From assembly GCA_013204985.1 (NCBI GenBank), contig JABMLG010000003.1, positions 496,001-560,000 of the forward strand: a stretch of DNA of 64,000 nucleotides, in the 5' to 3' direction. Below are positions 26,348 through 53,527 of the stretch, piece after piece. The translations under genes and the position numbers were made by a program. Position 1 is the first letter of the stretch. Each line of letters begins with the position of its first letter. Source of the DNA: Microbacteriaceae bacterium VKM Ac-2855. Lineage in GTDB: Bacteria; Actinomycetota; Actinomycetes; Actinomycetales; Microbacteriaceae. Under the pieces are notes generated by a model, which worked only from the letters and a program-made list of their open reading frames with translations, was not told where the DNA came from and searched no databases.

Positions 26348-28627
26348 ATGCCCCGCTCCTCCCTGCGCCCGCGTCTCGCGGCCGTCGCGCTGGCCTTCGG
26401 CCTCCTCGGTGCCGGAGCCGTCGCGGCTCCCGCGTCCGCCGTGGCTCCGGCATCCTCCCCGGCCGACGTCGTTCCCCGTGCGGACCAGCCGGGAACACCG
26501 GCGGATGCGGCCCCCGAGACGACATCGCAGGTTCCACCTTCCGCCACGACGGGGACGCTCCGAGGAACCGTGAGCATCGAGGGCGGCGGCGAGCTCTCGG
26601 ATCGTGTCTCCGTGGAGGCGATCGACGTGAAGACGGGATACTCCTTCATCGAGACGACCGATCTTCAGGGTGCGTACTCCTTGACGTTGAACGCCTCGAC
26701 CTACGCGGTGGCCTTCCGCCCGTGGACCAGTGTGCCGCTGGCCAGCGAATGGTGGGACGACAAGAAGACCCGAGACTCTGCCAATCCCGTCACGATCACC
26801 GCCGGTACGACTGTCGTCGCGGACGCGGAGCTGGATAGCGGCGGGTCGATCTCCGGTCGTGTGACCTGCGCAGGCGCGCCCGTCGTCAACGGATCGGTGA
26901 CCGCGGCACCGATCTCGGGCGGCGGTTACAACCGCTCGGTCTTCACGGACCAGGACGGCCGTTACACCGTGGTCGGACTCCAGGAGGGCGGCTACGAACT
27001 GAGCTTCAGCAACTCCGGCTCCTGCGTCGGTGAGTGGTGGAAGGATTCGAGTTCTCGCGCGGGATCCACTCCGGTCACGATCGGCTCGAAGCAGAACAGG
27101 ACCGGTATCGATGCCGACCTGCAGGTCGGCGGTGCGATCAGCGGCTCGATCGTGGGCGGTGCTGCTGCGGGCGGGACGGTGTACGCGTACACGGCCGGCG
27201 CGAACCCGCTGGCCTCCAGCGCCGTCGGCTCAGCGGTCGTGACGGCCGGTTCCTCCGACTACACGATCTCCCCGCTGCGTCCTGGTTCCTACTACGTCTA
27301 CTTCTCGCCGAACTCGAATGCTGTGCAGCGCCAGTGGTATTCATCGGCTGCGACGAGCGCCACGGCCACGGCGGTCTCGGTCACGTCCGGTAACACGAGG
27401 TCCGGCACCAATTTCAGCGCCCTCGCAACGGTGTCCATCTCTGGACGCGTCGTGGACACCGCCGGCGCGCCGGTGCCGTACACCACCGTAACGGCGACGG
27501 TGGCAGACGCTCCGACCAATGAGGGCGTCTACTACGGCTCGGTGGACACCAACGGGAACTACTCGATCCCCGGCCTGGTCAATGGGACTTACACGGTCGG
27601 GTTCCGCAACTACAGCACGTCGACCTCCTGGGCCTCACAGTGGTACGAGAATTCGCCGACGAGTTCCGGAGCGAAGCCGATCGTGGTCGGCGCGAACGGC
27701 GCTTCCTCGATCGACGCGACCCTCCAACGTGGCGGCTCGCTGAGCGGAACGGTCACGGCCGTGGATGCGCAGGGACAGCAGACGGCCACCCTCGCCGAGG
27801 ACGTCATTGCCGTGCCCTACACCTCATCCGGTTCCGGCTGGATGGCGATGCGCGACTACGCGAGCAGTGTTTCGTCGTCCTCCGGTGCGTATCAGATCAT
27901 CGGTCTCGCGGCCGGCAGCTACCGTGTCGGTTTCGAGGGCGCCTCGACGTCGGGCTCGTCGTACTACGGGGCCGCCTATTACGGTGATGCGTCATCGGTC
28001 CTCACTGCGCGCGACGTGGCGGTGACGGCAGGAGCAGATCAGGCGGGAGTCGACGCGACGATCGCGCCCAAGGGCTTCCAGCCGTCTTTCTCCGACGTGA
28101 CGTATTCGAACCCGTTCTTCTCGGATATCGAATGGATGTCGAGATCAGGCATCTCGACCGGCTACGTCAACCCGGACGGGTCGAGGTCGTACCGGCCGAC
28201 GGCGGTTGTGTCCCGTCAGGCGATGGCGTCGTTCTTGTACGAGTACTCGGGCGACACGTTCACACCGCCTCCGACGCCGTCGTTCTCGGATGTGCCGGTC
28301 TCGCATCCGTTCTACACGGCGATCGAATGGATGAAGGCCGAGGGCATTTCGACCGGCAACGCGGATGGGACCTATCGGCCCAACGACGCCGTCTCGCGGC
28401 AGGCGATGTCGGCGTTCCTCGCTCGGATGAGCGGCGAGACGATCCCGGTGCCGGTATCCGGATCGTTCTCGGACGTGCCACCGAGCAACCCGTTCTTCGC
28501 TCAGATCGAGTGGATGAAGACGGAGGGCATCTCCACCGGCTATCCGGACGGTACCTTCCGCCCGCTGGACAGCGTCACGCGACAGGCGATGGCGGCGTTC
28601 CTGCATCGCTACGACCTCCGCGAATGA
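26348..28627 (+). CDS. Secreted surface protein: five carboxypeptidase-regulatory-like repeats plus three SLH-like repeats
   Basis: 759 aa. A signal peptide is cut after about residue 32 (APASAVA). Five beta-sandwich repeats follow; their first strands are GTLRGTVSI, GSISGRVTC, GAISGSIVG, VSISGRVVD and GSLSGTVTA. Each is about 95 residues and ends near (S/Q)-x-W(W/Y)-x-(D/S). From Phe581 to the end are three SLH-like repeats of the form F-DV-NPFF-IEWM-GISTG-DGT-RP-V-RQAMAAFL. The repeats probably anchor the protein to the cell wall while the sandwich repeats project outward. The binding partner is not known. It opens the surface-glycan region. Confidence 0.88.
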   Translation: MPRSSLRPRLAAVALAFGLLGAGAVAAPASAVAPASSPADVVPRADQPGTPADAAPETTSQVPPSATTGTLRGTVSIEGGGELSDRVSVEAIDVKTGYSFIETTDLQGAYSLTLNASTYAVAFRPWTSVPLASEWWDDKKTRDSANPVTITAGTTVVADAELDSGGSISGRVTCAGAPVVNGSVTAAPISGGGYNRSVFTDQDGRYTVVGLQEGGYELSFSNSGSCVGEWWKDSSSRAGSTPVTIGSKQNRTGIDADLQVGGAISGSIVGGAAAGGTVYAYTAGANPLASSAVGSAVVTAGSSDYTISPLRPGSYYVYFSPNSNAVQRQWYSSAATSATATAVSVTSGNTRSGTNFSALATVSISGRVVDTAGAPVPYTTVTATVADAPTNEGVYYGSVDTNGNYSIPGLVNGTYTVGFRNYSTSTSWASQWYENSPTSSGAKPIVVGANGASSIDATLQRGGSLSGTVTAVDAQGQQTATLAEDVIAVPYTSSGSGWMAMRDYASSVSSSSGAYQIIGLAAGSYRVGFEGASTSGSSYYGAAYYGDASSVLTARDVAVTAGADQAGVDATIAPKGFQPSFSDVTYSNPFFSDIEWMSRSGISTGYVNPDGSRSYRPTAVVSRQAMASFLYEYSGDTFTPPPTPSFSDVPVSHPFYTAIEWMKAEGISTGNADGTYRPNDAVSRQAMSAFLARMSGETIPVPVSGSFSDVPPSNPFFAQIEWMKTEGISTGYPDGTFRPLDSVTRQAMAAFLHRYDLRE

Positions 28628-28667
28628 GCATCGCTGGCGTCTGGGGGCGCGTTCCCGGTCGCCTGCG

Positions 28668-30638
28668 ATGACGGGTGGAACCCGCGACCGCTTCGCATCG
28701 GCGGCCCTGATCGCCGCCGTGCTCGCCACCATCGTGCTCCTTCCGGGTGCGATGAACCGCTGGGTGCTGCCCAAGGAACTCGTCCTCGCGATCGCCCTGC
28801 TCCTCGGTGTCCTCGGTACCTCCAGCGGACGGCTGCCGCGCTGGATCGTGGTCTACATCACGGCTGCGGTCGCCGTTCTCCTGCTCGCGGCCGTCACCGG
28901 CGCGGCGCCCCTCTCGCAGCTCGCCGGCCGGTGGCCGCGATACGAGGGCCTCATCTCGCTGCCGGTTTACATCGGCGCCGTGTGGCTCGGAGCACGATTG
29001 CTCGGACCAGGAGCCGGGCCTGGCCGCATCGCCCTGTTCGTTCGCTTGTCATCGATCACCGCGATCGCGATCGGATCCGTCGCGGTCCTCGAGGCCGCGG
29101 GGGCGCGTCCGATCCCTGGCGATCTCGCGCGGCCGGGTTCCCTGCTGGGCAACGCCACGGATCAAGGCGCCGTGGGGGTCGTTCTGACCGCTGTGCTCGC
29201 GATCGCGACCCGTCGAGCATGGCACGAGGGCTTCGCACGCGACCGGTTGCTGGTAACAGCCGGGCTGGGGGCGGCGATCGCTAGCGTGGTGCTCTCGGCC
29301 TCGCGCAGCGCGCTGGTGGGGCTGGCTGCGGTCGCCGTGCTCGCCCTCGCGATGGCGGCCTCGAGCGGAGCCCTGCGCCGGCGGGAGACGCTCCGGTTCG
29401 GCCTGATCGCGGTCGTGGTGCTCGTGGCGGTGTTCGTCATCCCGTTGAGTCGGGATCGTGTGCTGGGTCTGAGCCCTTTGGCGGCGAGCTCGGCCGAGGC
29501 TCGATGGTCGATGTGGGCTCAGAGCTTCCGGATGGTGGCCGAGACGCCGTTGCTCGGCGTCGGTCCGAGCGGCTTCATGGACCGGCTCTCGGCGCTGCAC
29601 GGCGAGGACTGGTTCGCGCTCAACGGTTCCGGATCCACGACCGACTCCCCTCACGACGTGATGCTGCAGGTGCTGGCCGCGGGTGGGGTCGTTCTCCTGG
29701 TACCGGCGGTCGTCGCCGGAGTTCTGGTGATGCAGAGGGGTCTCGGCGCGTGGCGCGCTGCGTCGGCGGTGGTCCACTCCGAGAGAAAGAGGGCGGATGA
29801 GCAGCGCGCCGCGGCGCAGATGAAGCAGGTCTCTCGAAGTCGGAAGAAGAAGGCAGACTCTCCGACAGTCGTCACGATCGCTGCCGTCGACACCTCGCGC
29901 CGCGATCTTCTGGGTGGCGCACTGCTCGGCGTGGTCGGCTACCTCGTCGTTCTCAGCACGCACTTCACGATCGCCGGCACGATCGTGCTCCCGGCGATGC
30001 TCGCGGGCGCCCTGGTCGGTGTTCCAGCGGTCCGCGAGCGGCCCCCGCTGCGTCGCGCGCTCGCCGTCGCCTCCGCCGCCTGGGTCGTTGTGCTCGGAAC
30101 GGCGACCAGCGCCGAGCTGCCCCTGCAGGTGGGCGTCGAAGCGGCTGCCCGCGGCGATGTCGTTACGGCGGAGCGGGCTTTCGACACCGCGAGTGCCCTG
30201 CGGCCGTGGGACGCCGATGTGACGCTGATCGCCGCCCAGTCGCTGGCCGGAGCCGCAGACACCGGTGCCGTCGGAGCGCCGGCCGCGGCCGCGCGCTGGG
30301 GGACTCTCGCGGTCTCACGACTGCCGGCGTCGGTGCTCGCCGCCAAAGCCCTGGCGGTTGCGCAGCAGTACACGGGAGACGTGGCTGCCGCGGTGGCGAC
30401 GCTCCGCGATCTCGACGCCCGCGCTCCCAACGATCCCGAGACGACGCATCGACTCGGCGGCCTGCTCCTGCTCCTGGGCGATCCCGACGCGGGCCGCCTC
30501 CTGCAACGTGCGGTCGAGCTCGACCCGAGTGATGTTGACGCGTGGACGACCTTGCGCTTCTGGGCCCAGCAGGTCGACGATCGCGGTGTTCTCGAGCGGG
30601 CCGACGTGGCGCTCGCTCGCCTGCGGCTCGCGCCGTAA
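28668..30638 (+). CDS. O-antigen ligase/polymerase-like membrane protein with C-terminal TPR domain
   Basis: 656 aa. About 11-13 membrane helices (to about residue 490) include the Wzy_C/WaaL signature region ARWSMWAQSFRMVAETPLLGVGPSGFMD followed by SPHDVMLQVLAAGG, with the large outer loop and conserved His. A basic cytoplasmic insert RKRADEQ...KQVSRSRKKK lies near 375-400. The C-terminal 160 residues are TPR-like (AARGDVVTAERAFDTASALRPWD, LGDPDAGRLLQRAVELDPSDVDAW). It likely joins or polymerises lipid-linked glycans on the outer face. Ligase and polymerase cannot be told apart from sequence. Confidence 0.82.
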   Translation: MTGGTRDRFASAALIAAVLATIVLLPGAMNRWVLPKELVLAIALLLGVLGTSSGRLPRWIVVYITAAVAVLLLAAVTGAAPLSQLAGRWPRYEGLISLPVYIGAVWLGARLLGPGAGPGRIALFVRLSSITAIAIGSVAVLEAAGARPIPGDLARPGSLLGNATDQGAVGVVLTAVLAIATRRAWHEGFARDRLLVTAGLGAAIASVVLSASRSALVGLAAVAVLALAMAASSGALRRRETLRFGLIAVVVLVAVFVIPLSRDRVLGLSPLAASSAEARWSMWAQSFRMVAETPLLGVGPSGFMDRLSALHGEDWFALNGSGSTTDSPHDVMLQVLAAGGVVLLVPAVVAGVLVMQRGLGAWRAASAVVHSERKRADEQRAAAQMKQVSRSRKKKADSPTVVTIAAVDTSRRDLLGGALLGVVGYLVVLSTHFTIAGTIVLPAMLAGALVGVPAVRERPPLRRALAVASAAWVVVLGTATSAELPLQVGVEAAARGDVVTAERAFDTASALRPWDADVTLIAAQSLAGAADTGAVGAPAAAARWGTLAVSRLPASVLAAKALAVAQQYTGDVAAAVATLRDLDARAPNDPETTHRLGGLLLLLGDPDAGRLLQRAVELDPSDVDAWTTLRFWAQQVDDRGVLERADVALARLRLAP

Positions 30639-30698
30639 TCGCGTCGATACAGTTGCAGGGGTCGCGATGAACGGACATCGCGCGAGGAGGACGATCAG

Positions 30699-32756
30699 GT
30701 GGCTTCGATGGGCACGGAAGAACAACGGGCGGCCGCGCGAGACGCGCTGGAGCCGATCGTGCTGGTCGACCGCGGATCGAGTTACCGCGACGGGGCGGAA
30801 TCGGTTCTCGTCGATCTCGTGTCCGGCGCGACCGACATCACCTCCACGAGCGATGAGATGCTCGCGAACGCGGTGGACTGGCCGCAGCGGTACCACGTCG
30901 ATCCCGCTCGCGCGAACGTTCTGCGCGCCCTCGACCTGCCCGCGGACGCCGTTGTGCTCGAGGTCGGCTCCGGGTGCGGCGCGATCACCCGGTACCTCGG
31001 CGAGACGGTCGCGCACGTGGATTCTCTCGAGCCCGTACCCTCCCGCGCCCGCGTAGCGCGTCTTCGGACACGCGATCTGCCCAACGTCGACGTCTTCGTC
31101 GGGCAGGTACAGGACCTGCCCGACGATGAGCGTTACGACGTGGTGGTCGTCGTCGGTGTCCTCGAGTACGTCGGGAACGGATCCGTGGATCCGGCCCCGT
31201 ACCGCGAGTTCCTCGACGCGTGTCACCGTCGCCTGCGCCCCGGCGGAAGCCTGGTGCTGGCGATCGAGAACAGGTTCGGCGTGAAGTACTTGGCAGGCGC
31301 GCCCGAGGACCACTACGGCGTTCCCTACGTTGGCGTCGACGGGTACGCACGCGGCGAGCTCGCGCGGACCTTCAGCCGTCGCGAGCTGGTCGAGATGCTC
31401 GAGCAGGAGCGATTCGGCACCCGCTCCTTGATCGCCTTCCCCGATTACAAGCTCACGCGCGTCGTTTTCGATCCGGAGCGGCTCGATGACCTGCCGGCCC
31501 GCGAATTGCTCGCAGCCGTGCCGACGTTCCCGAGCCCGGACTGGACCGGCACCCGCGCGGCGGGGCCCGACGAGCGGCGGCTGTGGTCGGGATTCGTCGA
31601 CGCCGGCCTGGCGGCCGACACGGGTAACTCGCTGGTGATGCTGGCGCACAAGGGCGAACGCCCCGCTGCCGTTCTCTGGCCGGCGGAGCGAGCCGGCCGG
31701 TACTTCTCGCGCGAGCGCCGCCCCGGCTTCACCTCGGTCGCGACCGTGGTGCGCGAGAACCAGTCGGTCGTCGTCCGTCGCGCACCCCTGGTGCCGGATG
31801 CGGCGCCACCCGGCACGGACGCGGTCACCGAGTCCGAGGTCGCCTTCGTCTCGGGCACCGACCTGGTCGATCGCTTGACCGGCGCTGAATTGGAGGAGGC
31901 GCGCGCCCTGTTCTCCGCGTGGCATTCGCTCGCCGACGGCGCAGCGGCACGCGGTGAGCTGTCCTTCGACTTCGTTCCGCACAATCTGCGGGTCGCGGCG
32001 GACGGCTCGCTCGTCTTCATCGATGACGAATGGCGTCCGACGTTGTCGGACTCGGCCTCGGTCCTGCGGCGCGGAGTCGTGCTCACGGCGGTTCATCTGC
32101 AGCGCGTCGGCGTCGCCGGAACCTGGGGCGACCGTGCGACGGGTCGCGACCTGGCGGTGCTGATGGGTTCGTGGGTGGGCCTGGGGGCGGATGACGGCTG
32201 GATCGCCGCCGCGATCGATCGGGAGGCCGAGTTGCAGGTGCGCGTCGGACAGCGCGGGCCGGTGACGACGCCCGAACGTCTGCGGGCGGTGCGCGCGGGG
32301 ATCGAGGCGGTTCTCGATACCACCGTCGGCGCACCCGGCGCAGGCGTCGTGCCCGCATCGGTGGCTCCCGATTCCGCACCGGATCCAGCGGATCTCGCCG
32401 CCGTCGCCGCTGCCGTCGAGGCCGACGCCGAGTTCCTGCGCCGTCTCGAGCTCGGCGACGCCGCCATTCTCGCGCTGGCGGCGACCGAGAAGCGCACCGC
32501 CGATCTGCTCGAGAGCATCCAGACGGAGAACGCGGCGCGCGAGGCCGAGATCGATCGTCACGCCGCCCTGCACGTGGAGGAAGTGCGTGATCGCTCCGCC
32601 GCCCACATCCGTCATCTCGAGGACCTCGTCCGCAGCCTGACCGCGCGCCTGGACGCGGCCGAGCTGGGCATCCGCGAGGCGCACGCCTCGACCAGCTGGC
32701 GCGTCACGACGCCCCTCCGGGTGGCCGCCCGCGCCGTGAAGAAGCACGATCGATGA
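30699..32756 (+). CDS. SAM-dependent methyltransferase of surface-glycan type with C-terminal coiled coil
   Basis: 685 aa. The N-terminal class I methyltransferase has motif I VLEVGSGCGAITRY at 86-99, an acidic DSLEPVPSR and YDVVVVVGVLEYVG as motif II, then LRPGGSLVLAIENRFGVKYLAG. The middle part (about 300-520) is of unknown function, with a kinase-like DFVPHNLRVAADGSLVFIDDEW segment. A coiled coil (about 560-660) precedes STSWRVTTPLRVAARAVK, an ending shared by many glycan-modifying enzymes. GAGGAGG precedes the GTG. It probably methylates or caps a glycan; overlap with the next gene (ATGA) shows coupling. Confidence 0.82.
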   Translation: MASMGTEEQRAAARDALEPIVLVDRGSSYRDGAESVLVDLVSGATDITSTSDEMLANAVDWPQRYHVDPARANVLRALDLPADAVVLEVGSGCGAITRYLGETVAHVDSLEPVPSRARVARLRTRDLPNVDVFVGQVQDLPDDERYDVVVVVGVLEYVGNGSVDPAPYREFLDACHRRLRPGGSLVLAIENRFGVKYLAGAPEDHYGVPYVGVDGYARGELARTFSRRELVEMLEQERFGTRSLIAFPDYKLTRVVFDPERLDDLPARELLAAVPTFPSPDWTGTRAAGPDERRLWSGFVDAGLAADTGNSLVMLAHKGERPAAVLWPAERAGRYFSRERRPGFTSVATVVRENQSVVVRRAPLVPDAAPPGTDAVTESEVAFVSGTDLVDRLTGAELEEARALFSAWHSLADGAAARGELSFDFVPHNLRVAADGSLVFIDDEWRPTLSDSASVLRRGVVLTAVHLQRVGVAGTWGDRATGRDLAVLMGSWVGLGADDGWIAAAIDREAELQVRVGQRGPVTTPERLRAVRAGIEAVLDTTVGAPGAGVVPASVAPDSAPDPADLAAVAAAVEADAEFLRRLELGDAAILALAATEKRTADLLESIQTENAAREAEIDRHAALHVEEVRDRSAAHIRHLEDLVRSLTARLDAAELGIREAHASTSWRVTTPLRVAARAVKKHDR

Positions 32757-34570
32757 GGCTGGCCCTGGTCTCGCCCGCCCGCGGCAACCGCTACATGCGC
32801 GAGATCCTCGAGGGGATCGCCTACGAGGCGAACGCGGCCGGTATCTCCGCCGCGGTGGTCGACGACGTCTTCCCCGAGGGGGACGACATCGTCTACGTCG
32901 TGATCCCGCACGAATACTTCGCGCTGGTGGCGCCCGAGGACTGGCCGGACGAATCCGTGCTGTCGCGCACCTTCGCGTTGACCGTCGAGCATCCCGGAAC
33001 GCAGTGGTTCGAGACCTCGGCCGAGCAGGCTCGGCGGTGCGGGGGGATCCTCGATATCAACCGCGATTCAGCGGCGGAGTTGCGTCGGCGCGGCCAGCCG
33101 GCGGTGCACTTCCAGCTCGGCTACACCGAGTTCAGCGACGCGTGGCACGGCGAGGACCGCCTGCGTTCGACGGACGTTCTGTACCTCGGTTCGACCGACG
33201 AGAAACGCGACCGCGCCCTCGCCGGCGCCGCGCCGTTCTGGTGGGACCGCCGTGTCCGCCTCCTGCTGCCCTCGCACGAGCCCAAGCCCGACGCCGGCGG
33301 CGACTTCATCGTCGGCCGACGCAAGCTGGAGCTGCTCAGCGACACACGGATCCTCGTCAATCTGCATCGTGACCGCTCGCGCAGCCTCGAATGGGTACGC
33401 GTGCTCGAGGCGATCGCCAACGGCGCCGTCGTCTACTCGGAGCACTCGGTCGACGCGGCGCCGTTGGTCTCCGAAGAGCACTTCGTCTCCGTGTCGCCCG
33501 AGAACCTCGGCGTCATGACGGCGAACGCGCTCGGCAACGAAGAGTATCTCGACGGCATCCGCCGACGGGCCTACGACTACATCCGTGGCTACCTCCGGCT
33601 CTCGACGTCGGTCGAGATCCTCTTGGCCGAGGCGGAGCGTCTGCTCCGCGAGCGCCCTGCGGTGCCGTCGGCGCACGAGGTGCCCGTTCCGCCGGGCCCG
33701 GTCTACCCGCGGCCCGCGTGGGAGCATTACGAAGGCACGCGCGATCACCTGGGCGAGGCGGTCGCCCGGCTCGAGAACAGGGTCGGCCAGTTGACCCGAG
33801 CGCTGGCCGCGGCGCAGGCGCCGGAGGCCGCGGCGCCTCCGGTCAACTCACCGGCGTGGCTGGTGGCGCAACCGCGGGTCTCCGTCATCATCCCGATGCA
33901 CAATGCGGCGGCCTGGATCGTCGAGTGCCTCGATTCGGCCGTTCGCAGCACCGGTGTCGCCTTCGACATCGTGGTGCTGGACGACGCCTCGACCGACGCG
34001 TCCGCGCGCATCGTGCGCGACTACATCCTGACGCACCCGGAGGTGCCGCTGCAGTTGCTGCACGCTCGGGCGAATCGGGGACCGTCGGCGACACGGAACG
34101 AGCTGCTCGAGAACGCCAGGGGCGAGTTCGTCTTCCTCCTCGACGCCGACAACGGGATCTATCCCAGCACCCTCGCGACCCTGGTCGCCGCGCTCGACGA
34201 CGACCCGAAGGCGTCCTTCGCCTACGGCATCATCTCGACCTGGCGCGACGGCATCGCCCAGAGCCTGATCAGCTCGCGCCCGTGGAACCCGCGGCTGTTC
34301 CGGTTCGGCAACTACATCGACAACATGGCGCTGCTGCGCACGGCGGAGCTGCGCGAGCTCGGCGGCTGGGACGCATCGCTGACCAACTGGGAGGATTTCC
34401 AGCTCTGGCTGCGGTATGCGGAGGCGGGGAAGTACGCGGCGTTCGTACCCTCGATCGTCGCCTGGTACCGGGTCTCGCGTTATTCGCGCAGCATGGAGGT
34501 CTCGTTGCACGCTCCGCAGCTGTGGACGGCGATGCGCTCGGTGGCGCCCGGGGTGCTGACCGACGAGTAG
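32753..34570 (+). CDS. Two-domain glycosyltransferase (GT1/CgeB-like N-terminus, GT2 C-terminus)
   Basis: 605 aa. The N-terminal half (about 1-300) resembles the glycosyltransferase fold of CgeB-like proteins: YLGSTDEKRDRAL, ILVNLHRDRSRSLEWVRVLEAIANGAVVYSE and a late YDYIRGYLR. The C-terminal half is a GT2 domain with VSVIIPMHNAAAWIVECLDSA from about 376, VVLDDASTD, and the metal-binding LLDADNG near 461. No membrane helices are seen. Donor and acceptor sugars are unknown. The last 91 bases overlap the convergent beta-helix gene. Confidence 0.85.
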   Translation: MRLALVSPARGNRYMREILEGIAYEANAAGISAAVVDDVFPEGDDIVYVVIPHEYFALVAPEDWPDESVLSRTFALTVEHPGTQWFETSAEQARRCGGILDINRDSAAELRRRGQPAVHFQLGYTEFSDAWHGEDRLRSTDVLYLGSTDEKRDRALAGAAPFWWDRRVRLLLPSHEPKPDAGGDFIVGRRKLELLSDTRILVNLHRDRSRSLEWVRVLEAIANGAVVYSEHSVDAAPLVSEEHFVSVSPENLGVMTANALGNEEYLDGIRRRAYDYIRGYLRLSTSVEILLAEAERLLRERPAVPSAHEVPVPPGPVYPRPAWEHYEGTRDHLGEAVARLENRVGQLTRALAAAQAPEAAAPPVNSPAWLVAQPRVSVIIPMHNAAAWIVECLDSAVRSTGVAFDIVVLDDASTDASARIVRDYILTHPEVPLQLLHARANRGPSATRNELLENARGEFVFLLDADNGIYPSTLATLVAALDDDPKASFAYGIISTWRDGIAQSLISSRPWNPRLFRFGNYIDNMALLRTAELRELGGWDASLTNWEDFQLWLRYAEAGKYAAFVPSIVAWYRVSRYSRSMEVSLHAPQLWTAMRSVAPGVLTDE

Positions 34571-36270
34571 CGCAGTCCGCCGCGTACCGTCGCGGGCGCC
34601 TCGGCGAGTGAATCCACGTTGCCTCGGGCGCGCGCGGCACTGAGCGAGCCGACCTCGCTGATCAGCGTCACCGTCCCGGAGGCGTAGCTGAAGTACGCTT
34701 CGCCTCCGCTGACGACGTTGTCGCGCAGCCGGGCGCGAGCGTGTTCGTCGAAGATCTGCGCGCCGGCGTTGTCGGAGATGAGATTGGCCTCCAGAGTCGC
34801 CTCGGCGACGGCGTCGCGCACGTAGACGCCGCCGCCGCCGCGCGGAGTGGACGAACGGTTGGCGCGGATGATGTCTCCCGTGATCACGGCGCGCGCGCCG
34901 TCGAGCAGGGCCACCCCACCGCCGACCAGTGCCGTGTTTCCGGTCACGTCGTTGCCGCTCATCCGCAGCCGGGCATGGGCGGCGTACACGCCGCCACCGC
35001 TCGCGGCGAGGGCACCGGTGACGGTGTTCGCGCGGATGCGGTTCCCGGTGAGTCGGACGACGGCGCCCTCGGCGATGGACACGCCGGCGCCGCCGGCGGA
35101 TGCGGAGTTGCCGGCGAGCTCGTTGTCGCGGATCGTCGGCTCGGAGTGGTCGTAGACCGCGATGCCTCCACCGAAGCCCGACCCCTCGAACAGCGGGTCC
35201 ACAACGGCTCGATTGCGGAGGATCCGGTTACCGGAGACCGTCATCGTGCTGGTCGCGGACTCCAGATGGATCCCGCCGCCGTACGCGGCCGCGTTGTCGA
35301 CGATCGTGTTGTCCACGATGGTCGCATCGACGCCGACACGGACCATCACGCCGCCACCCGCGAACTGCGCCGTGTTGGCTCGGATCAGGTTGCGGGCCAC
35401 GACCGGACGGCTGGCGACCTCCGGCAACCGGATGTCGTTCTCGAGGTAGATGGCGCCGCCGGAGGATCCGCCGTTGAGGATCTGCGCACCGGTGACCGCG
35501 TTGCCCTCGAACGTGTTGCCCACGATCGCGGGCGAGGAGTACTTCACGGCGAAGACGCCGCCGCCGAAGACACCCGCTGTGTTGTCGCTGATCGTGTTGT
35601 CGATCAGCAGCGGGGAGGATCCGTCGTAGACGAGGATCCCGCCGCCGTGGACCTCCGAGTGATTGCCGACGATGCGCATCCGCTGGATCACCGGGTTCGC
35701 GTCGAAAGCGATGGTGATCCCACCGCCCTGGCCGTCGGGGGAGTGCCCTCCGGTGATGGTGAATCCGCTGACGCGCATCCGGCTGTCGTCGGCTGCGGGA
35801 ACGTGCTGGATCATCAACGGCGAGCGGCCGGCGGGAGCGGTCAGCACGATCGACGCGGGGTCGCCCAGGCCGACCAGATCGATCGCGCGTCCATCGACCG
35901 TGACGTTCTCGACGTAGCGACCGGGCGTGATCGCGACGGTGTCGCCGGAGCGGGCGGCATCCACGGCGGCCTGGATGCTCGGATACGCGAGCCCCTCACC
36001 GACCAGCAGACGGCGCGGTCGGGCACCGTCGGCGACGGCGCCGCTCGGCAACGGCAGGGCGGGGACGGCGACGGTGAGGCGCGGGCCGCCGAGAGCGCGC
36101 GTCGGAGGGCCGATCGCGTCACTCCCCGTGGCCGGGACGGGGGTGAGCGCACCGATAGCGACGACAACGGCCGTCGCAACGAGCGTGCGCACCGCGCGGA
36201 GGCCGATCACCGCACCAGCGTACGACGCCGAGACCGACTTGGCCGCCCTGTTCGCGGCGGATACGCTCAT
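34480..36270 (-). CDS. Secreted right-handed beta-helix repeat protein
   Basis: 596 aa. A signal peptide (core LVATAVVVAIGALTPVPATG) precedes a PbH1-type parallel beta-helix of many turns with repeating GGGI/GGGV and N-x-I-x-x-N patterns (AGVFGGGVFAVKYSS, AAYGGGIHLES, ASGGGVYAAHARL). The start of the helix, YPSIQAAVDAARSGDTVAITPG, is typical of polysaccharide-degrading or -binding helices. Start uncertain: ATG at 36270, or GTG at 36210, which puts the signal peptide nearer the N-terminus. The 3' end overlaps the convergent glycosyltransferase gene. A role in trimming or binding the surface glycan is inferred from position only. Confidence 0.83.
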   Translation of the reverse strand: MSVSAANRAAKSVSASYAGAVIGLRAVRTLVATAVVVAIGALTPVPATGSDAIGPPTRALGGPRLTVAVPALPLPSGAVADGARPRRLLVGEGLAYPSIQAAVDAARSGDTVAITPGRYVENVTVDGRAIDLVGLGDPASIVLTAPAGRSPLMIQHVPAADDSRMRVSGFTITGGHSPDGQGGGITIAFDANPVIQRMRIVGNHSEVHGGGILVYDGSSPLLIDNTISDNTAGVFGGGVFAVKYSSPAIVGNTFEGNAVTGAQILNGGSSGGAIYLENDIRLPEVASRPVVARNLIRANTAQFAGGGVMVRVGVDATIVDNTIVDNAAAYGGGIHLESATSTMTVSGNRILRNRAVVDPLFEGSGFGGGIAVYDHSEPTIRDNELAGNSASAGGAGVSIAEGAVVRLTGNRIRANTVTGALAASGGGVYAAHARLRMSGNDVTGNTALVGGGVALLDGARAVITGDIIRANRSSTPRGGGGVYVRDAVAEATLEANLISDNAGAQIFDEHARARLRDNVVSGGEAYFSYASGTVTLISEVGSLSAARARGNVDSLAEAPATVRGGLRYSSVSTPGATERIAVHSCGACNETSMLRE

Positions 36271-36276
36271 CCTTGG

Positions 36277-41486: not shown

Positions 41487-41518
41487 GAACCCCTGCTTTC
41501 CCTGGCCGACTCTCTGAC

Positions 41519-41524
41519 TATACT
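41519..41524 (+). promoter_or_regulatory. Candidate -10 box in the divergent glycosyltransferase gap
   Basis: TATACT, a near-consensus -10 in otherwise GC-rich sequence, 44 bases before the GTG at 41569. The -35 region is poor. Confidence 0.5.
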
Positions 41525-41568
41525 TGGGCCGCTCAGTGCCCTGCGCGGGGGCCGAACCAGGGGGACAC

Positions 41569-44174: not shown

Positions 44175-45722
44175 ATGAGAGCGCCATGGGGATACAGCAG
44201 GATGGCCGGGGGGCTCGTCGCGTCCGCGCTGGCGGTCGCGCTCGTCGTGACCGGTTCGGTACCGGCCGCCGCGGAGGATGCGACCGGCGGTAGGGATACG
44301 ACCAAGGCACTGGTCGACGGCGCGACGGCGGATGCGGTGCAGCAGGACCTCCTCGATGCGCAGCGTGCGGATCCGGAGGAGGCCGAGGTCACGTCGGGCG
44401 CAGGGACCATCGCCCGGATCTCCGGGTCCGATTGGCAGGCGGGCGACATCGTCAGCGACTCGAACTACTTCGATGGCACGGTGCTCTCGGCGGCTCAGGT
44501 GCAGAGCTTCCTGAACGAGAAGAATGCGGACTGCGCGGGCTCCTACTGCCTGAAGAACTACTCCACCGCGACCCGGCCGGTAGCGGGCGACATGGTGTGC
44601 GACCCGTGGACGACGAGCGGGAGCATGACCGCCGCGCAGATCATCGCGCGATGGGGTGAACTCTGCGGCGTCAGCCAGCGCGCCCTGCTGACCGTGCTGC
44701 AGAAGGAGAGCAGCCTGGTCACCCGTGATGACGCCACCGCGAGCACCTACCTCGCCGCGACCGGCTTCGGCTGCTACGACGGCTCGCCCTGCGCCGCCGA
44801 CAAGGCCGGATTCTTCAACCAGGTGTACTGGACCGCCTACATGTCGCGCCGGTACCTCAATCCGTCGGGCACGCAGACCCACTACGTGAACTACCTCCCC
44901 GGTCGAACGGCGAATGTGCTCTTCAACCCGAACCCCGCCTGCGGCACGGGGCCCGTCGCGGTGAGCAACTACGCGACCGGGACGCTCTACAACTACACGC
45001 CGTATCAGCCCAACGCCGCGGCACTCGCGAATCTTTACGGCACCGGGGATGACTGCTCGACCTACGGCAACCGCAACTTCTGGACGATCTGGACGGGATG
45101 GTGGGGCTCGCCCAACGCGGTCGACCAGTTCTTCACCGACGTGCCGGCCGGCGCCCCGTTCTACAACGACATCCAATGGATGGCCACCTACAAGGTCTCG
45201 ACGGGCACCGCGCAGGCGGACGGTAGCGCGGTTTATCAGAGCAACGCCGCCGTCTCGCGGCAGGCCATGGCGGCGTTCCTGTTCCGTTACAGCGGCGACA
45301 CCGACTTCGTGGCGCCGACGAAGCCGAGCTTCGCCGACGTCGGAACATCGAACCCGTTCTATCGGGCGATCGAGTGGATGAAGGCGGAGAAGATCTCGAC
45401 CGGCACCACCCAGCCCGACGGCACCGTCACCTACTCGCCGCTGTCGGCGGTCTCGCGCGAGGCGATGGCGGCGTTCCTCTACCGCTTCTCCGACGAATCG
45501 TTCACGCCGCCGAGCAGCCCGTCCTTCGCTGACGTGCCCCCGTCGAGCGCCTTCTACACGGCCGTCGAGTGGATGAAGTCCACGGGGATCAGCACCGGAT
45601 CGGCGGGACCGAACGGCACGCTGCTGTACAAGCCGGCCGACGCGGTCTCGCGGCAGGCGATGGCCGCCTTCCTGCACCGCTACTACGACCGCTGGCTGGT
45701 GCGGACGACGCCTGGCCTGTGA
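44175..45722 (+). CDS. Secreted protein with transglycosylase-like domain and three SLH-like repeats
   Basis: 515 aa. The signal peptide ends near VPAAAEDA. The middle domain (about 95-310) contains LSAAQVQSFLNEKNADC, WGELCGVSQRALLTVLQKESSLV, ATGFGCYDGSPC and YTPYQPNAAALANLY. The QKESS segment with Glu178 recalls the catalytic Glu of lytic transglycosylases, and the paired cysteines suggest disulfides. Three SLH-like repeats run from about 316 to 510 (DVPAGAPFYNDIQWM, DVGTSNPFYRAIEWM, DVPPSSAFYTAVEWM). Cleavage of peptidoglycan or of the glycan made nearby is a guess; fold comparison would decide. Confidence 0.83.
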   Translation: MRAPWGYSRMAGGLVASALAVALVVTGSVPAAAEDATGGRDTTKALVDGATADAVQQDLLDAQRADPEEAEVTSGAGTIARISGSDWQAGDIVSDSNYFDGTVLSAAQVQSFLNEKNADCAGSYCLKNYSTATRPVAGDMVCDPWTTSGSMTAAQIIARWGELCGVSQRALLTVLQKESSLVTRDDATASTYLAATGFGCYDGSPCAADKAGFFNQVYWTAYMSRRYLNPSGTQTHYVNYLPGRTANVLFNPNPACGTGPVAVSNYATGTLYNYTPYQPNAAALANLYGTGDDCSTYGNRNFWTIWTGWWGSPNAVDQFFTDVPAGAPFYNDIQWMATYKVSTGTAQADGSAVYQSNAAVSRQAMAAFLFRYSGDTDFVAPTKPSFADVGTSNPFYRAIEWMKAEKISTGTTQPDGTVTYSPLSAVSREAMAAFLYRFSDESFTPPSSPSFADVPPSSAFYTAVEWMKSTGISTGSAGPNGTLLYKPADAVSRQAMAAFLHRYYDRWLVRTTPGL

Positions 45723-48002: not shown

Positions 48003-49178
48003 ATGCCACGCGTCAGTCCCATCGGCCGACCGGGGCGGCGGCGCCCGCTCGCCGGGATCATGATCCTGGCCGCTGCCCTCGCCGCCGTTCTCGTCGGTCT
48101 CGCGCCGGCGCAGACCGCGCGCGCGGACTCGCCCTACTTCCTCGACGTGCCGACGTCGCATCCGTTCTACGCCGAGATCCAGTGGATGGGAGAGAGCGGG
48201 GTCTCGAGCGGGTACGCGGTGGAGGGTGGGCGGGAGTACCGCCCGAACGGCCTCGTGACGCGGCAGGCGGTCGCGGCCTTCCTGTATCGCCGCTCGGGTG
48301 AGAGCGCTGTGCCCCCGGTCGAGGCCACCTTCTCGGACGTGCCGACGAACCACCCGTTCGCGACGGAGATCGAGTGGATGGCTGCCGCCGACATCACGGA
48401 CGGCTACCTCGAGGCCGACGGTCGGCGCACGTTCCGTCCCGAGCAGGTGCTCAGCCGGCAGGCGATGTCGGCCTTCCTCGCGAGAGCGGTGAAAGTGTTC
48501 CCGACCTCGCCCATCGAGGAATCCTTCGCCGATGTCGCCTGGACGACACCGTTCTACCGTGAGATCGAGTGGATGAGATCCGAGGGGATCAGCACGGGCA
48601 CGGCCTCCTCGTCGGGCAAGCCGCTGTACAAGCCTCTCGACGACGTCACGCGGCAGGCTCTGGCGGCCTTCCTCTACCGACTCCGCGACACCCCGACGAA
48701 CGATCCGACGGACCAGTCGACCTGGATCATCGGTTTCGGTGAGATGGGACCGGCGCAGGTCGGTGACAGCTTCGAACACGCCATCGGGTCCGTGCCGGGA
48801 AGCACCCGGGAGCAGACGCCCGCCTGCACCAGCGCCATGATCGGGTACGACCGTTCTCCGGCCGTGAACGCTCTGTACCCGTATCAGGCGGGCCAGCCTC
48901 TCATCGCGACGATCTGGTACAAGCTCGATCCCGGCGGCACGGGCGTGCTCGAGACCACCGCGGGGATCGGCACCGGCTCGAGCAGGGCCGAGGTCCTCGC
49001 CGCTTACGCGGGGCGCACCACCGAGCATCCCGACATCTACGATCCGGCGCACCCGTCACTCTCCGTGACCGCGACGAACGGGCAGTCGATCGTCTTCTCG
49101 TTCGGCTCCTCCGACACCGTCGACCTGCTGCGGACCGGAGAGCTGGCGGTGGCCCTGGCCGGGGAACCCTGCAGCTAG
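48003..49178 (+). CDS. Secreted protein with N-terminal SLH-like repeats and unknown C-terminal domain
   Basis: 391 aa. The signal peptide ends near ARADS (about 42). Here the three SLH-like repeats come first (about 45-228: DVPTSHPFYAEIQWM, DVPTNHPFATEIEWM, DVAWTTPFYREIEWM), the reverse of the other four proteins. The C-terminal domain (about 235-391) has WIIGFGEMGPAQVGDSF, ACTSAMIGYDRSPAVNALYPYQAG and IGTGSSRAEVLAAYAGRTTEHPDIYDP; I do not recognise it. It resembles small beta-rich domains of secreted actinobacterial proteins. GGAGGAT gives a strong ribosome site. Confidence 0.83.
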   Translation: MPRVSPIGRPGRRRPLAGIMILAAALAAVLVGLAPAQTARADSPYFLDVPTSHPFYAEIQWMGESGVSSGYAVEGGREYRPNGLVTRQAVAAFLYRRSGESAVPPVEATFSDVPTNHPFATEIEWMAAADITDGYLEADGRRTFRPEQVLSRQAMSAFLARAVKVFPTSPIEESFADVAWTTPFYREIEWMRSEGISTGTASSSGKPLYKPLDDVTRQALAAFLYRLRDTPTNDPTDQSTWIIGFGEMGPAQVGDSFEHAIGSVPGSTREQTPACTSAMIGYDRSPAVNALYPYQAGQPLIATIWYKLDPGGTGVLETTAGIGTGSSRAEVLAAYAGRTTEHPDIYDPAHPSLSVTATNGQSIVFSFGSSDTVDLLRTGELAVALAGEPCS

Positions 49179-49327: not shown

Positions 49328-50953
49328 ATGACAGCCATCACTCGAGGACCCTTCACGCGTTTCGCGGCGATGCTCACCCTCGCGGCCGTCGCCGCGACCA
49401 CCTTCGGTGTGACGTCCTCCGCCGCCGCAGCGACGTCGGCACCCGGCTACTCGGCGACGACCACGATCCCGATCGGCGAGAGCTACGACGGCGGCGACAT
49501 CGTCGTCGACGACGCGAGTTCGCGCGCGTACGTCCTCTCTCGAGGCGTCGAGAACTGGGACAACCGCACGCTCACCGCGATCGACACGACGAGCGATACG
49601 GTCGCATCGACGCTGATCATCCCGGGAGCGTACGGCGACCAGCTCGAACTCGACGCCGAGCATGACCGCATCATCGCCTGGACACCGGGCGACACCCTCG
49701 TCGCTGTCGTCCGCGCCTCCAGCCTGGAGCTGCTGTACAGCGTCTACCTCGACGAAGGTCCGCGCAGCGTGGGGATCGACACGGTCACCGGCCAGGTCCT
49801 GATCGGCACATCCGCCGGGGTCGCCGTACTGACGCCGACGGATGTCCGTGCAGAGTCCCGCTTCATCGCATTGAGCGGGCCAGCGGATGCGATCGCGGTC
49901 GACGAAGCCGGACGCCGCGCCTATGTCCACGTGGAGCGCGGCGCGACCGACGCCGTCGCGACGATCGATCTCGACCGCAGCACGGACAGTGTGATCGACA
50001 CGCACGACCTGGCGCTCGCCGCGCGATCCATGCAGTGGGACTCGGGCGCTCGGCGCATCCTGCTGCACGATCCGACCGACCGTCGCATCGTCGTCGTCGA
50101 TCCCGCGGATTGGAGCGTCGGAGCGTCGATCGCGGTGAGCGAGAACGCTCGGGACCTCGCCGTGGACCCGATCGGTCGACGCGCGTTCGTCTCGAACGGC
50201 GTCGACTCGACGGTATCGGTGATCGATCTGCGATCCGCAGCCGTCATCGGAACGCTGGACGGCTCGGGCGCCGCGGCGATCGCGGCCGGCGTGAGCATCG
50301 CCGGACAAAAGGTCTACGTGGCGCGAGCCTCCGCCGACGGCCCCACATCGGTGCTCGTCTTCGACGGTCCCGCTTTCATCGTCAGCGGCGGACACGCCGT
50401 GCTGGATGTGCCGGCCGACAGCGCTTTCTACACCGAGATCGCGTGGATGTTCTCCCGTGGCTTGACGACCGGGTACGCCGAGAGCGACGGCTCGCTGAGC
50501 TATCGACCGACGGCGACGGTCTCGCGCGAGGCCATGTCGGCGTTCCTCTACCGGTACTCGGGCGACACGTTCACGCCGCCGCCCACGCCGTCGTTCGCCG
50601 ATGTTCCCGTCGACTCCACCTTCTACACGCAGATCGAGTGGATGAAGGCCGAGGGCATCAGTACCGGTACCGTGCAGGCCGACGGCTCTGTCCGCTTCCT
50701 GCCCGGCGACCCCGTTTCCCGGCAGGCGATGTCGGCGTTCCTCGCGCGCCTCGATGGCGCGACTCCGACCGCACCGGTCACGTCGAGTTTCAGCGATGTC
50801 CCGACGGACCACCCCTTCTTCACCGAGATCGAGTGGATGGCCGCCGAGGGCATCAGCACCGGCTACCCGGACGGCACCTTCCGACCCACGGACGTCGTGA
50901 CCCGGCAGGCGATGGCAGCGTTCCTGTACCGCTTCGATCAGCGTGACGACTGA
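49328..50953 (+). CDS. Secreted YVTN-type beta-propeller protein with three SLH-like repeats
   Basis: 541 aa. A signal peptide (to about residue 36, SSAAAATSA) is followed by a beta-propeller (about 40-350) with repeated blades such as DIVVDDASSRAYVLSRG, LELDAEHDRIIAWTPGD and LAVDPIGRRAFVSNGVDSTVSVIDLRSAAVIGTL, the YVTN/WD-like pattern of surface proteins. Three SLH-like repeats from about 357 fill the C-terminus, the last ending TRQAMAAFLYRFDQRDD. Likely a ligand-binding head displayed on the wall; the ligand is unknown. Confidence 0.86.
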   Translation: MTAITRGPFTRFAAMLTLAAVAATTFGVTSSAAAATSAPGYSATTTIPIGESYDGGDIVVDDASSRAYVLSRGVENWDNRTLTAIDTTSDTVASTLIIPGAYGDQLELDAEHDRIIAWTPGDTLVAVVRASSLELLYSVYLDEGPRSVGIDTVTGQVLIGTSAGVAVLTPTDVRAESRFIALSGPADAIAVDEAGRRAYVHVERGATDAVATIDLDRSTDSVIDTHDLALAARSMQWDSGARRILLHDPTDRRIVVVDPADWSVGASIAVSENARDLAVDPIGRRAFVSNGVDSTVSVIDLRSAAVIGTLDGSGAAAIAAGVSIAGQKVYVARASADGPTSVLVFDGPAFIVSGGHAVLDVPADSAFYTEIAWMFSRGLTTGYAESDGSLSYRPTATVSREAMSAFLYRYSGDTFTPPPTPSFADVPVDSTFYTQIEWMKAEGISTGTVQADGSVRFLPGDPVSRQAMSAFLARLDGATPTAPVTSSFSDVPTDHPFFTEIEWMAAEGISTGYPDGTFRPTDVVTRQAMAAFLYRFDQRDD

Positions 50954-51103
50954 GCGGCGAGGCGCCCCGGAATCCGGTCCCTGAGGAGGCTTCCTCGGAC
51001 ACTCCGGAGCCAGTAGCATCCATCAGGGCTCGCCGCGGACCTCTCCGCGCCTGAGGTGCGAGCGGTCGCTCGCGTCCGCGAGTGAACAAGAACCGGGGGA
51101 ACC

Positions 51104-53527
51104 GTGCGTCATTTCCGCTCATCCGTCGTTGCGATCGCAGCGACGCTCGCTCTCGCGTTGTCGGGGGCGACGGTCGCATCAGCCGATCAGCAACTCCCGA
51201 CGACGGCGCCCGCTCAGGTCGTGCCCGCCACGAACGACACCGTGCACGTCTCGTCGAACGGGGAGTTCGCGAGCACGCCCAAGCTCTCCGTCGTCGGAAC
51301 GCTCGGTGTCCGGGTGGGCGACGGCACTCCCGCACAAGCCGATCCCGCGACGGGCGAGATCGCGCCGGGCGGCGAACCCGAGACGAGCTACACGATCTCG
51401 ACGGCGGACGGAACCGTGGTCGACATCTCGGGCGCGTTCCCGCAGACGGTGACGACCGGCTCCGAGATCGACGCCACCGTCGCCGTGCCGGAGGACGTCA
51501 GCGCAGCGTTGCCGACCGCGGTCGCGTCGCAGGTGCGTGCCGCGACGGATGCTCCGGTGGGCGCGTCATCCGCCGCGGGTGCGTCCGTGCTCGAGACCTC
51601 GGTCGAGACCGGCGCGACGCTGCAGATCGTGGAAGCGGATGTCACCCCGCGCGCGGCCGCGGCGGGAGTCACCCAGCCGCTGTACGTAGCGGTCGTCGCG
51701 CCCAACGGCTCGGTGCCGAACTTCTACACCGACGCGCAGGTCGCTTCGCTGTCGAGTGCGCTCGGCAGCTACTGGGTCGGACAGACCTACGGCGAGATCG
51801 CCTCGATCCCACTCCAGGCGACGCGCCAGTACACCTCCGCGTTCGGCGGATGCGATACGGATGCGCTCTGGAACGAGGCCCTCAGCAGCTTCGGCTTCGA
51901 AGGCGACTGGCAGAGTGCCGACTACAACGGCGCGCACGTCGTCGTCCTGACCCCGGATTCGGATTGCGGTTTCATCGGCGTCGGCTCGATCGGCACTCCC
52001 GGCTCGGGAGGTGTCATCCAATCGGTGGTGAACATCGGCCTCGACAAGACCACCGTGGCGCACGAATTCGGTCACAATCTCGGCCTCGGCCACTCCAACA
52101 CGACCTACTGCAGCGACCCCGCCTTCGTCGACAGCGACAGCAGCTGCTACTACGAGGAGTACCACGACTACTACGACGTGATGGCGGGCGGACTCTGCAC
52201 CGGATCGCGCTGTTGGGACGAACTCGGTGCGCTGAACGTGATCGGACGCGCCAGGCTCGGTGTCTCGCAGATCGACTCGCTGGAGATCGATCCGGCCGAG
52301 CCCAGCCGTTCCTGGACGGCGACGATCGCCGCGGCCTCGGCGAGCGGCGGTCGCCAGGGCCTCGAAGTCGTCGACCCGATCACCGGTGGGTACTACTACG
52401 TCGAGTACCGTTCCGGCACGGGGATCGATGCCGGCGGCTTCTACGCCAGCGGTGAATCCGACTACTTCCGTCCGGGGGTGAGGGTGGCGTCGTATCAGGA
52501 GCGAGACTCCGACGGGTACTTCGTCGACTTCTCGAACCAGGCGTCCATCATCCAGGACGACACGGACCCGAGCTTCCGCCCGTACGCGATGCGGGTGACG
52601 GACACCTTCTCCACGCAGTCGGCCGGTCTCTCGATCGCGGTGAACAGCACGAGCGGCACGGAGGCGACGGTGACGGTGACCGAACGCCGCAGCGCCCAGC
52701 TCGTTCCCAAAGCCCGCTCGGCCGCCATCACCGGCGCGACGGCCATCGGCTCGACCCTCTCCATCGTGAACGACAACTGGAACGTGCCGTCGGTGAACCG
52801 CAGCTACGAATGGCTCCGGAACGGCTCGCCGATCGGAGCGACGGGCGCGCAATACGTCACCGTCGCGGCGGACGAGGGCACGGCCATCACGGCACAGGTC
52901 ACGGCCTCCCGCGCCGAGTACCTGACGGGGTCCACCACGACGAACAGCGTGCTCGTCGACTCCCGGCCGCACGCGTTCAGCGATGTCCTGCCGACGCATC
53001 CGTTCTTCACCGACATCGAGTGGATGGCCTCGACCGGTCTCTCGACCGGGTACGACGACGGTCGGGGTGGGAAGGAGTACCGGCCCAGCGCGAACGTGAC
53101 GCGTCAGGCGATGGCCGCATTCCTCTTCCGGCTCTCGGGCGACAGCGCCTACACGGCGCCTGCCGAACCGTCGTTCAGCGACGTGCCGACCACGCACCCG
53201 TACTATCGCGAGATCGAGTGGATGAAGGCGGAGGGGATCACGACCGGGAATCCTGACGGGACCTACAACCCCAACGGCGTCGTGTCGCGCCAGGCAATGG
53301 CGGCCTTCCTCGCGCGGATGTCCGGTGAGACGATCGTCGTTCCGGCCACGCCCTCCTTCAGCGATGTGCCGACGACCAACCCGTTCTACGCGGAGATCGA
53401 GTGGATGCGCTCGAGCGGTATCTCCACGGGGTACGACGACGGCACCTATCGCCCCATCGCCGACGTGTCGCGTCAGGCGATGGCCGCGTTCCTGCACCGG
53501 TACGACGCGAAGTACGGCGACTCGTAG
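51104..53527 (+). CDS. Secreted metzincin-type metalloprotease with three SLH-like repeats
   Basis: 807 aa. A signal peptide ends near ATVASADQ. A propeptide-like region (about 30-180) precedes a reprolysin-like peptidase domain with zinc motif HEFGHNLGLGHS at 320-331 (His320, Glu321, His324, His330) and a Met-turn YYDVMAGG near 360. After a further beta-rich region and an Ig-like segment (GSTLSIVNDNWNVP...YEWLRNGSPIGATG, about 550-610), three SLH-like repeats run from about 624 to the end. GTG start with GGGGGA upstream. Probably a wall-anchored protease acting outside the cell. Confidence 0.88.
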   Translation: MRHFRSSVVAIAATLALALSGATVASADQQLPTTAPAQVVPATNDTVHVSSNGEFASTPKLSVVGTLGVRVGDGTPAQADPATGEIAPGGEPETSYTISTADGTVVDISGAFPQTVTTGSEIDATVAVPEDVSAALPTAVASQVRAATDAPVGASSAAGASVLETSVETGATLQIVEADVTPRAAAAGVTQPLYVAVVAPNGSVPNFYTDAQVASLSSALGSYWVGQTYGEIASIPLQATRQYTSAFGGCDTDALWNEALSSFGFEGDWQSADYNGAHVVVLTPDSDCGFIGVGSIGTPGSGGVIQSVVNIGLDKTTVAHEFGHNLGLGHSNTTYCSDPAFVDSDSSCYYEEYHDYYDVMAGGLCTGSRCWDELGALNVIGRARLGVSQIDSLEIDPAEPSRSWTATIAAASASGGRQGLEVVDPITGGYYYVEYRSGTGIDAGGFYASGESDYFRPGVRVASYQERDSDGYFVDFSNQASIIQDDTDPSFRPYAMRVTDTFSTQSAGLSIAVNSTSGTEATVTVTERRSAQLVPKARSAAITGATAIGSTLSIVNDNWNVPSVNRSYEWLRNGSPIGATGAQYVTVAADEGTAITAQVTASRAEYLTGSTTTNSVLVDSRPHAFSDVLPTHPFFTDIEWMASTGLSTGYDDGRGGKEYRPSANVTRQAMAAFLFRLSGDSAYTAPAEPSFSDVPTTHPYYREIEWMKAEGITTGNPDGTYNPNGVVSRQAMAAFLARMSGETIVVPATPSFSDVPTTNPFYAEIEWMRSSGISTGYDDGTYRPIADVSRQAMAAFLHRYDAKYGDS

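Follow-up and report, generated by a model that had tools for sequence, protein, structure and literature searches.

Gene content of the locus

The window analysed here is a 64,000-nucleotide stretch (C20:496001-560000) of the 4.7 Mb genome of Microbacteriaceae bacterium VKM Ac-2855, which has a completeness score of 100%. It encodes five SLH proteins (Table 1), all above the PF00395 cut-off (44.7-105.7 bits vs 20.8). Each protein has three repeats, 15 across the window, as the sequence-only reading had it. A regular expression skipped the first repeat of SLH protein 1, which was evident in other repeat comparisons. Judged by eye from their N-termini, the five proteins are apparently secreted. 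Comparison of the N-terminal part of SLH protein 2 with the PDB gave a chance-level immunoglobulin as the sole match (0.056). Three more full-length SLH trimer matches were found outside the window (on C5, on C12 and at 47.7 kb of C20). An SLH remnant was also seen at L035:9034-17636 (G000:C21:211 kb), where a 107-amino-acid frame with one or two repeats is followed by several stretches resembling part of SLH protein 5.

A cluster of glycan genes occupies the 28.7-44.1 kb portion, with SLH genes on both sides; guaA, at 46300, lies between SLH genes 2 and 3. Pfam placed the polysaccharide pyruvyl transferase (PyrT), the Wzy-like protein and several glycosyltransferases of this cluster just where the initial reading had put them; the methyltransferase gene, the beta-helix/NosD gene and guaA are additional to that reading. 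Elsewhere in the window (16812-18473, minus strand), a branched-chain amino acid permease domain follows a CarboxypepD_reg/SpaA-like stretch that scores below cut-off, an odd pairing.

Table 1. SLH genes and glycan cluster genes of the window.
Feature	Position	Strand	Domains and remarks	Basis
SLH protein 1	26348..28627	+	CarboxypepD_reg (carboxypeptidase-regulatory-like) repeats; SLH trimer C-terminal	Pfam and repeats
Wzy_C membrane protein	28668..30638	+	O-antigen ligase/polymerase-like; C-terminal TPR-like stretch	Pfam
SAM methyltransferase-domain protein	30699..32756	+		Pfam; syntenic in VKM Ac-2854 (64%)
Glycosyltransferase	32753..34570	+	GT2	Pfam; syntenic in VKM Ac-2854
Right-handed beta-helix/NosD-like protein	34480..36270	-		Pfam
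Glycosyltransferase	36241..38484	+	GT2 and GT4 domains; true start uncertain, GT2 domain from near 36373	Pfam
Polysaccharide pyruvyl transferase (PyrT)	38481..39515	+	Pvg1p-like branch ("type A")	PF04230; 5ax7 match
Glycosyltransferase	39512..40396	+	Glyco_tranf_2_4; overlaps PyrT stop	Pfam
Glycosyltransferase	40416..41996	-	GT2	Syntenic in VKM Ac-2854
Glycosyltransferase	41593..44124	+	GT2 and GT4 domains; scanned from 41596, start approximate	Pfam; 73% in VKM Ac-2854
SLH protein 2	44175..45722	+	N-terminal domain without Pfam name; SLH trimer C-terminal	Pfam; 71% over 506 aa in VKM Ac-2854
SLH protein 3	48003..49178	+	SLH trimer N-terminal; C-terminal part unnamed	Pfam
SLH protein 4	49328..50953	+	Weak, sub-cut-off beta-propeller matches; SLH trimer C-terminal, modelled	Pfam and structure prediction
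SLH protein 5	51104..53527	+	M12-type metallopeptidase domain; SLH trimer C-terminal	Pfam

The window pyruvyl transferase

The window PyrT matches the full PF04230 profile with 62.9 bits (5.9e-17; cut-off 25.3 bits). No match to TIGR03609, the CsaB equivalog (cut-off 213.1 bits), appeared even at E ≤ 1, and the closest solved structure is Pvg1p of Schizosaccharomyces pombe, 5ax7 (sequence E of 1.6e-25 alone and 3e-45 as a profile; Foldseek 1e-16 with a model whose mean pLDDT is only 70). On these grounds an identity with CsaB, the enzyme with which the sequence-only reading proposed to compare it, was rejected and a Pvg1p-like assignment put in its place. Passages of PMC10435577 describe the residues critical for PEP binding in CsaB together with their Pvg1p counterparts. 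R146, H286 and K307 of the window PyrT align with PEP-binding residues, K284 stands where an Arg is expected and the position equivalent to the loop Arg falls at R189/R190. Alignment and model thus place the protein among the Pvg1p-like ketal-pyruvyl transferases, with most PEP residues kept and activity predicted. It resembles Pvg1p in sequence and fold and keeps most PEP residues but is bacterial and lies within an SLH-flanked glycan cluster. The acceptor of Pvg1p is galactose or lactose according to the same passages of PMC10435577.

When 84,980 species genomes were scanned with exact short patterns, a method that detects close relatives only, three relatives of the window PyrT were returned: one in VKM Ac-2854 (73%) and two in Planctomycetes MAGs (37% and 35%). 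Both MAGs (L037:10001-11817 and L038:9295-11147) carry the PyrT paired with the same glycosyltransferase directly after it as in the window (39512..40396).

Other Micrococcales have a CsaB-like subfamily, here called type B, which was delineated from an alignment (A6) and shows a motif like GD-I/V-GQ..YH.GDEA; in leave-one-out scoring its members reached at least 299 bits, and none of the other PyrTs compared exceeded 63. Type B and the window PyrT have in common that they occur near SLH genes, but they are distant branches: the type-B model omits the window PyrT at E ≤ 0.01, and the window-branch model gives type B at most 18 bits. No type-B PyrT was found in the window genome.

SLH fold and sugar-binding pocket

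The SLH trimer formed by the last 186 residues of SLH protein 4 was modelled with a pLDDT of 93. Its nearest structures are Sap-SLH and SpaA-SLH, several of them with a pyruvylated ligand, and the three repeats are predicted to form a three-pronged spindle, bearing out the SLH assignment made at the outset. Passages of PMC6081394 assign to Arg43 and Gly29 the contacts with the ketal pyruvate. Each of these residues is kept in 15/15 window repeats, and in a wider alignment of 60 repeats Arg43 is found in 59 and Gly29 in 56. In contrast, Trp13, which stacks on ManNAc, is absent from all window repeats, the site aligned to Sap being occupied by Pro (12), Ala (2) or Thr (1); no Trp stands at position 13 in any of the 60. 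The window repeats have a Phe or Tyr adjoining position 13, an invariant Trp in helix 1 and, in place of TRAE, whose Glu is missing, an SRQAM-like motif. Thus, of the binding pocket known from Sap and SpaA, the pyruvate contacts are kept and the sugar platform is not, and pyruvyl-ManNAc is not indicated as the ligand because the ManNAc-stacking Trp is missing.

The relation to the known systems follows the same lines. Sap-SLH of Bacillus anthracis and SpaA-SLH of Paenibacillus alvei, the latter with CsaB, share with the window the SLH trimer fold, Arg43 and Gly29, and a pyruvyl transferase in the same genome; unlike the window repeats, they have Trp13, and the Bacillus/Paenibacillus domains have TRAE. 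The window further differs from the SLH-SCWP system of these two species in that its PyrT is not CsaB and in that client genes and glycosyltransferases are intermingled. The complete loss of Trp at position 13 would also suit trimers with a different target in the wall, either peptidoglycan or a polymer of another charge, with the link to pyruvate being historical. We consider this improbable, as the residues that touch pyruvate are precisely the conserved ones.

Conservation of the locus

The order antiporter-SLH-SURF1-SLH-methyltransferase-GT-PyrT-GT-GT(-)-GT-SLH is kept in VKM Ac-2854 (G158), which on a second contig shows SLH-DUF3817-guaA-SLH-...-pcrA. The Wzy_C gene, one glycosyltransferase gene and the beta-helix gene (L036) were not found by tblastn in the VKM Ac-2854 stretches. 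The first of these bears on the idea that the cluster glycosylates the SLH proteins, the Wzy_C-TPR protein acting as oligosaccharide ligase as in S-layer glycosylation. Homologues of this protein do lie beside SLH/PyrT loci in G155 (51%) and G238 (34%), and it gives a weak match to the O-glycosylation ligase profile TIGR03097 (29.8 of 188.1 bits, far below cut-off). However, its gene was not found in the VKM Ac-2854 cluster, which is otherwise syntenic, and a search of 27 SLH-near loci for the window glycan genes found Wzy_C in only two, the glycosyltransferase at 32753 weakly in two and none of the others at 1e-10. A role in glycosylating the SLH proteins therefore appears unlikely.

Between the window and VKM Ac-2854, the flanking housekeeping genes are 77-98% identical, whereas the SLH and glycan genes are 39-73% identical and vary in number. 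Such a pattern would be expected if the PyrT served a pyruvylated exopolysaccharide or capsule with a role of its own, and the SLH genes were its neighbours only as fast-changing surface genes in a hotspot near guaA. Further evidence on this possibility is given below.

Across 15 genomes of the genus, PF04230 is present in all and SLH in three (G000, G158 and G155). All three SLH genomes hold a PyrT nested among SLH genes, and these PyrTs belong to two branches, the one that sits between SLH genes in G155 being CsaB-like. A relative of the window PyrT occurs in G158 and, weakly, in G156, a genome without SLH. The pcrA-guaA interval of G299 (family f13) harbours a type-B PyrT together with SLH genes, and three of the window's SLH genes occupy the same interval. 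This hints at an ancient locus common to both, where one enzyme has been replaced by another; as a single case, it is a lead only.

Co-occurrence of SLH proteins and pyruvyl transferases

Among 149 Microbacteriaceae genomes, SLH was detected in 6, PF04230 in 86 and type B in 18. Neither PF04230 (5/6 SLH genomes vs 81/143 others, p = 0.40) nor type B (1/6 vs 17/143, p = 0.54) was significantly associated with SLH in this sample, where 17 of the 18 type-B genomes have no detected SLH. PF04230 is absent from one SLH genome (G088), and in G007, G140 and G064 its matches are on other contigs or hundreds of kb away from the SLH gene.

The order sample (396 genomes) contains 95 genomes with SLH, 250 with PF04230 and 48 with type B. 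Here SLH is associated with PF04230 (82/95 vs 168/301, p = 2.4e-8) and with type B (33/95 vs 15/301, odds ratio 10, p = 1.7e-12; counted by genus, 15/25 with SLH vs 3/83 others, p = 2.2e-9), the type-B p values being inflated because the subfamily was defined from loci picked near SLH. The 19 type-B rows of alignment A6 (G036, G155 and 17 from the order sample) had all been selected for their closeness to SLH before the subfamily was defined. When the picked genomes were dropped, that is, the 17 A6 genomes of the order sample and G415, chosen likewise and lying outside A6, the association persisted (15/77 vs 15/301, odds ratio 4.6, p = 1.5e-4; by genus, 9/21 vs 3/83, p = 1.6e-5). Since the genomes are related, the tables by genus are the safer ones.

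With the type-B genomes set aside, PF04230 is equally frequent with and without SLH (49/95 vs 153/301, p = 0.91), and the notion that any PF04230 protein tracks SLH was rejected. This lack of association is in keeping with PyrTs that serve a capsule or exopolysaccharide and have SLH genes as mere neighbours; against it, the type B-SLH association survives removal of the picked genomes. TIGR03609 does not single out the SLH-linked PyrTs because linked type-B proteins (88.9 bits in G155, 67.3 in G036) and unlinked PyrTs of G140 (85.0 and 83.8) overlap in score.

Fifteen genomes of the order sample have type B but no detected SLH; conversely, 62/95 SLH genomes are without type B and 13/95 without any PF04230. 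The latter 13 would speak for trimers that bind another wall component, but 11 of them show only one or two SLH matches. SLH counts per genome are lower bounds, at most 8 candidates per genome having been scored; on this count type B is present in 19/36 genomes with at least five SLH matches and in 14/59 of the remaining SLH genomes (p = 0.007). In sum, the co-occurrence anticipated by the sequence-only reading was seen for type B across the order and did not reach significance in the Microbacteriaceae, while SLH genomes devoid of a pyruvyl transferase, which that reading would count against itself if frequent, do occur, also in one of the six from the Microbacteriaceae.

Proximity of SLH genes to pyruvyl transferase genes

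Up to 20 kb around every type-B match was retrieved and scanned for SLH. In the 33 SLH genomes with type B, an SLH domain lay within 10 kb in 20 and within 18 kb in 4 more; the stretch contained none in the remaining 9, where a miss is possible because stretches were sometimes off-centre or ended at contig ends. Without the picked genomes, SLH was within 10 kb of type B in 6/15. Distances can be very short: 273 bp separate the type-B PyrT from the SLH domain in G036, and 33-102 bp lie between the edges of the PyrT and SLH domains in nine genomes of family f12. In three f12 proteins scanned, a GT2 domain is in the same frame as the type-B PyrT.

PyrTs other than type B served as controls. Outside family f4, SLH was near 2/25 of their loci (p = 3.6e-5 vs 20/33; p = 0.036 vs 6/15); 20 of these loci came from the matches listed, with G521, known to be near SLH, left out, and the figure of 25 results from adding G521 and L122-L125. 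With the f4 loci included the comparison becomes 8/32 vs 20/33 (p = 0.006). Family f4, whose genomes were examined after the fact, has SLH within 10 kb in 6/7 loci (5 genomes). Five of the seven loci hold a short PyrT that, among the PyrTs retrieved, is the closest actinobacterial relative of the window branch (82-92 bits with the window-branch profile, which gives type B no more than 18), and SLH lies within 10 kb in four of the five. SLH proximity thus arises on both PyrT branches. The Pvg1p-like PyrTs near SLH at L117, L118, L120 and L121, in f4 genomes of about 2 Mb, form a second lineage like that of the window. Altogether, SLH genes are found near pyruvyl transferases in six families (f1, f4, f6, f10, f12 and f13). 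An earlier count among the matches listed (13/30 genomes with PyrT and SLH at most 10 kb apart, 0.9 expected under random placement) is superseded by the locus counts above.

The rarity of SLH near non-type-B PyrTs outside f4 again favours unrelated neighbours in a variable region. Nevertheless, PyrTs from two distinct branches are found repeatedly among SLH genes and the f12 gap is minimal in nine genomes, and we regard mere neighbourhood as rather unlikely.

A quick tree was computed for 72 type-B rows, with distant rows as the root and a single support value. One clade takes up 46 of the rows: 34 belong to genomes in which SLH was not detected, 8 have SLH in the stretch and 4 represent other SLH genomes. 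The other 26 rows are all from SLH genomes, and for 19 of them SLH is at most 6 kb away. Type-B-like PyrTs in genomes without detected SLH include those at L075, L077-L081, L083, L084 and L086 (nine genomes of family f7) and at L126-L144 (Microbacteriaceae). At L075 and L083, by eye, the type-B-like gene adjoins a groEL-like gene.

Discussion

We estimate at roughly 60% the probability that the window PyrT makes a pyruvylated wall glycan held by the neighbouring SLH trimers. The cluster at 28.7-44.1 kb would build or decorate a cell-surface glycan, to a sugar of which the PyrT would add ketal pyruvate from PEP; the SLH trimers of the five neighbours, and of further proteins of the genome, would then clasp the ketal pyruvate through Arg43 and the Gly29 backbone, and so anchor these proteins non-covalently to the cell wall. 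The basis of this explanation is the SLH fold, the kept Arg and Gly, the PEP residues, synteny and the order-wide link of SLH with other PyrT branches. From these we infer that the PyrT is active, that its product is a wall polymer and that the SLH trimers bind this product. The SLH-PyrT coupling is likely a variant of the known anchoring system. The proposal that a receptor glycan and its SLH clients are encoded together thus gains from the SLH genes near PyrTs in six families of the order, and neither a CsaB enzyme nor a pyruvyl-ManNAc ligand is indicated.

Two qualifications apply to the comparative data. Two related genomes are the only ones in which the window's own PyrT type was found close to SLH genes, and a single evolutionary event may account for this link. 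The order-wide statistics concern the other PyrT branch, chosen after its proximity to SLH had been seen.

Work by Mesnage from 2000 is reportedly a source for the coupling of SLH domains to pyruvate in Firmicutes. Passages of PMC6081394 and PMC5817068 present this coupling as established there, those of PMC5817068 also put SLH in Micrococcales already in print, and passages of PMC6801904 propose, in general terms, that SLH and CsaB orthologues are functionally coupled. No account of the actinobacterial coupling, the altered pocket or a Pvg1p-like writer was found in the titles, abstract beginnings and passages of the open-access literature, and the remark that such an arrangement is not usually described in Microbacteriaceae accords with these same texts. 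Neither was a literature trail found for pyruvylated wall polymers in Microbacteriaceae, PMC10978784 being concerned with indole-pyruvic acid instead.

The loss of Trp13, and a PyrT from the branch of Pvg1p, which acts on galactose or lactose, make it improbable that the sugar is ManNAc, as it is in Bacillus. According to passages of PMC6801904, walls of Promicromonospora and Nocardiopsis contain 4,6-Pyr-Gal, 2,3-Pyr-GlcA and pyruvylated teichoic acid, with no associated function known. The organisms differ from that of the window, the polymer class, actinobacterial and bearing ketal pyruvate, being what they would have in common. As pyruvylated galactose is known from Promicromonospora walls, pyruvyl-galactose is a sensible first candidate for the ligand, and no more.

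A broader proposal can be made tentatively, as a possibility somewhat against the odds: the SLH trimers of Micrococcales might read a changed pyruvyl-sugar code. The pyruvate clasp would be kept and the Trp13 platform replaced by the aromatic residue at position 14 and/or the Trp of helix 1; the writer would have been swapped between CsaB-like and Pvg1p-like branches at SLH loci; and writer and readers would be co-encoded and co-evolving, with a ligand such as pyruvyl-galactose.

Our understanding of SLH anchoring comes from Firmicutes, with pyruvyl-ManNAc as the ligand. If in Micrococcales the same clasp does serve another sugar, with another enzyme, SLH specificity would become a readable code with natural variants, for which the CsaB-like type-B PyrTs close to SLH genes offer concrete pairs for testing. 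The pyruvylated polymers of actinobacteria, so far chemotaxonomic markers, would gain a function, and the Micrococcales would gain a little-recognised route of surface display.
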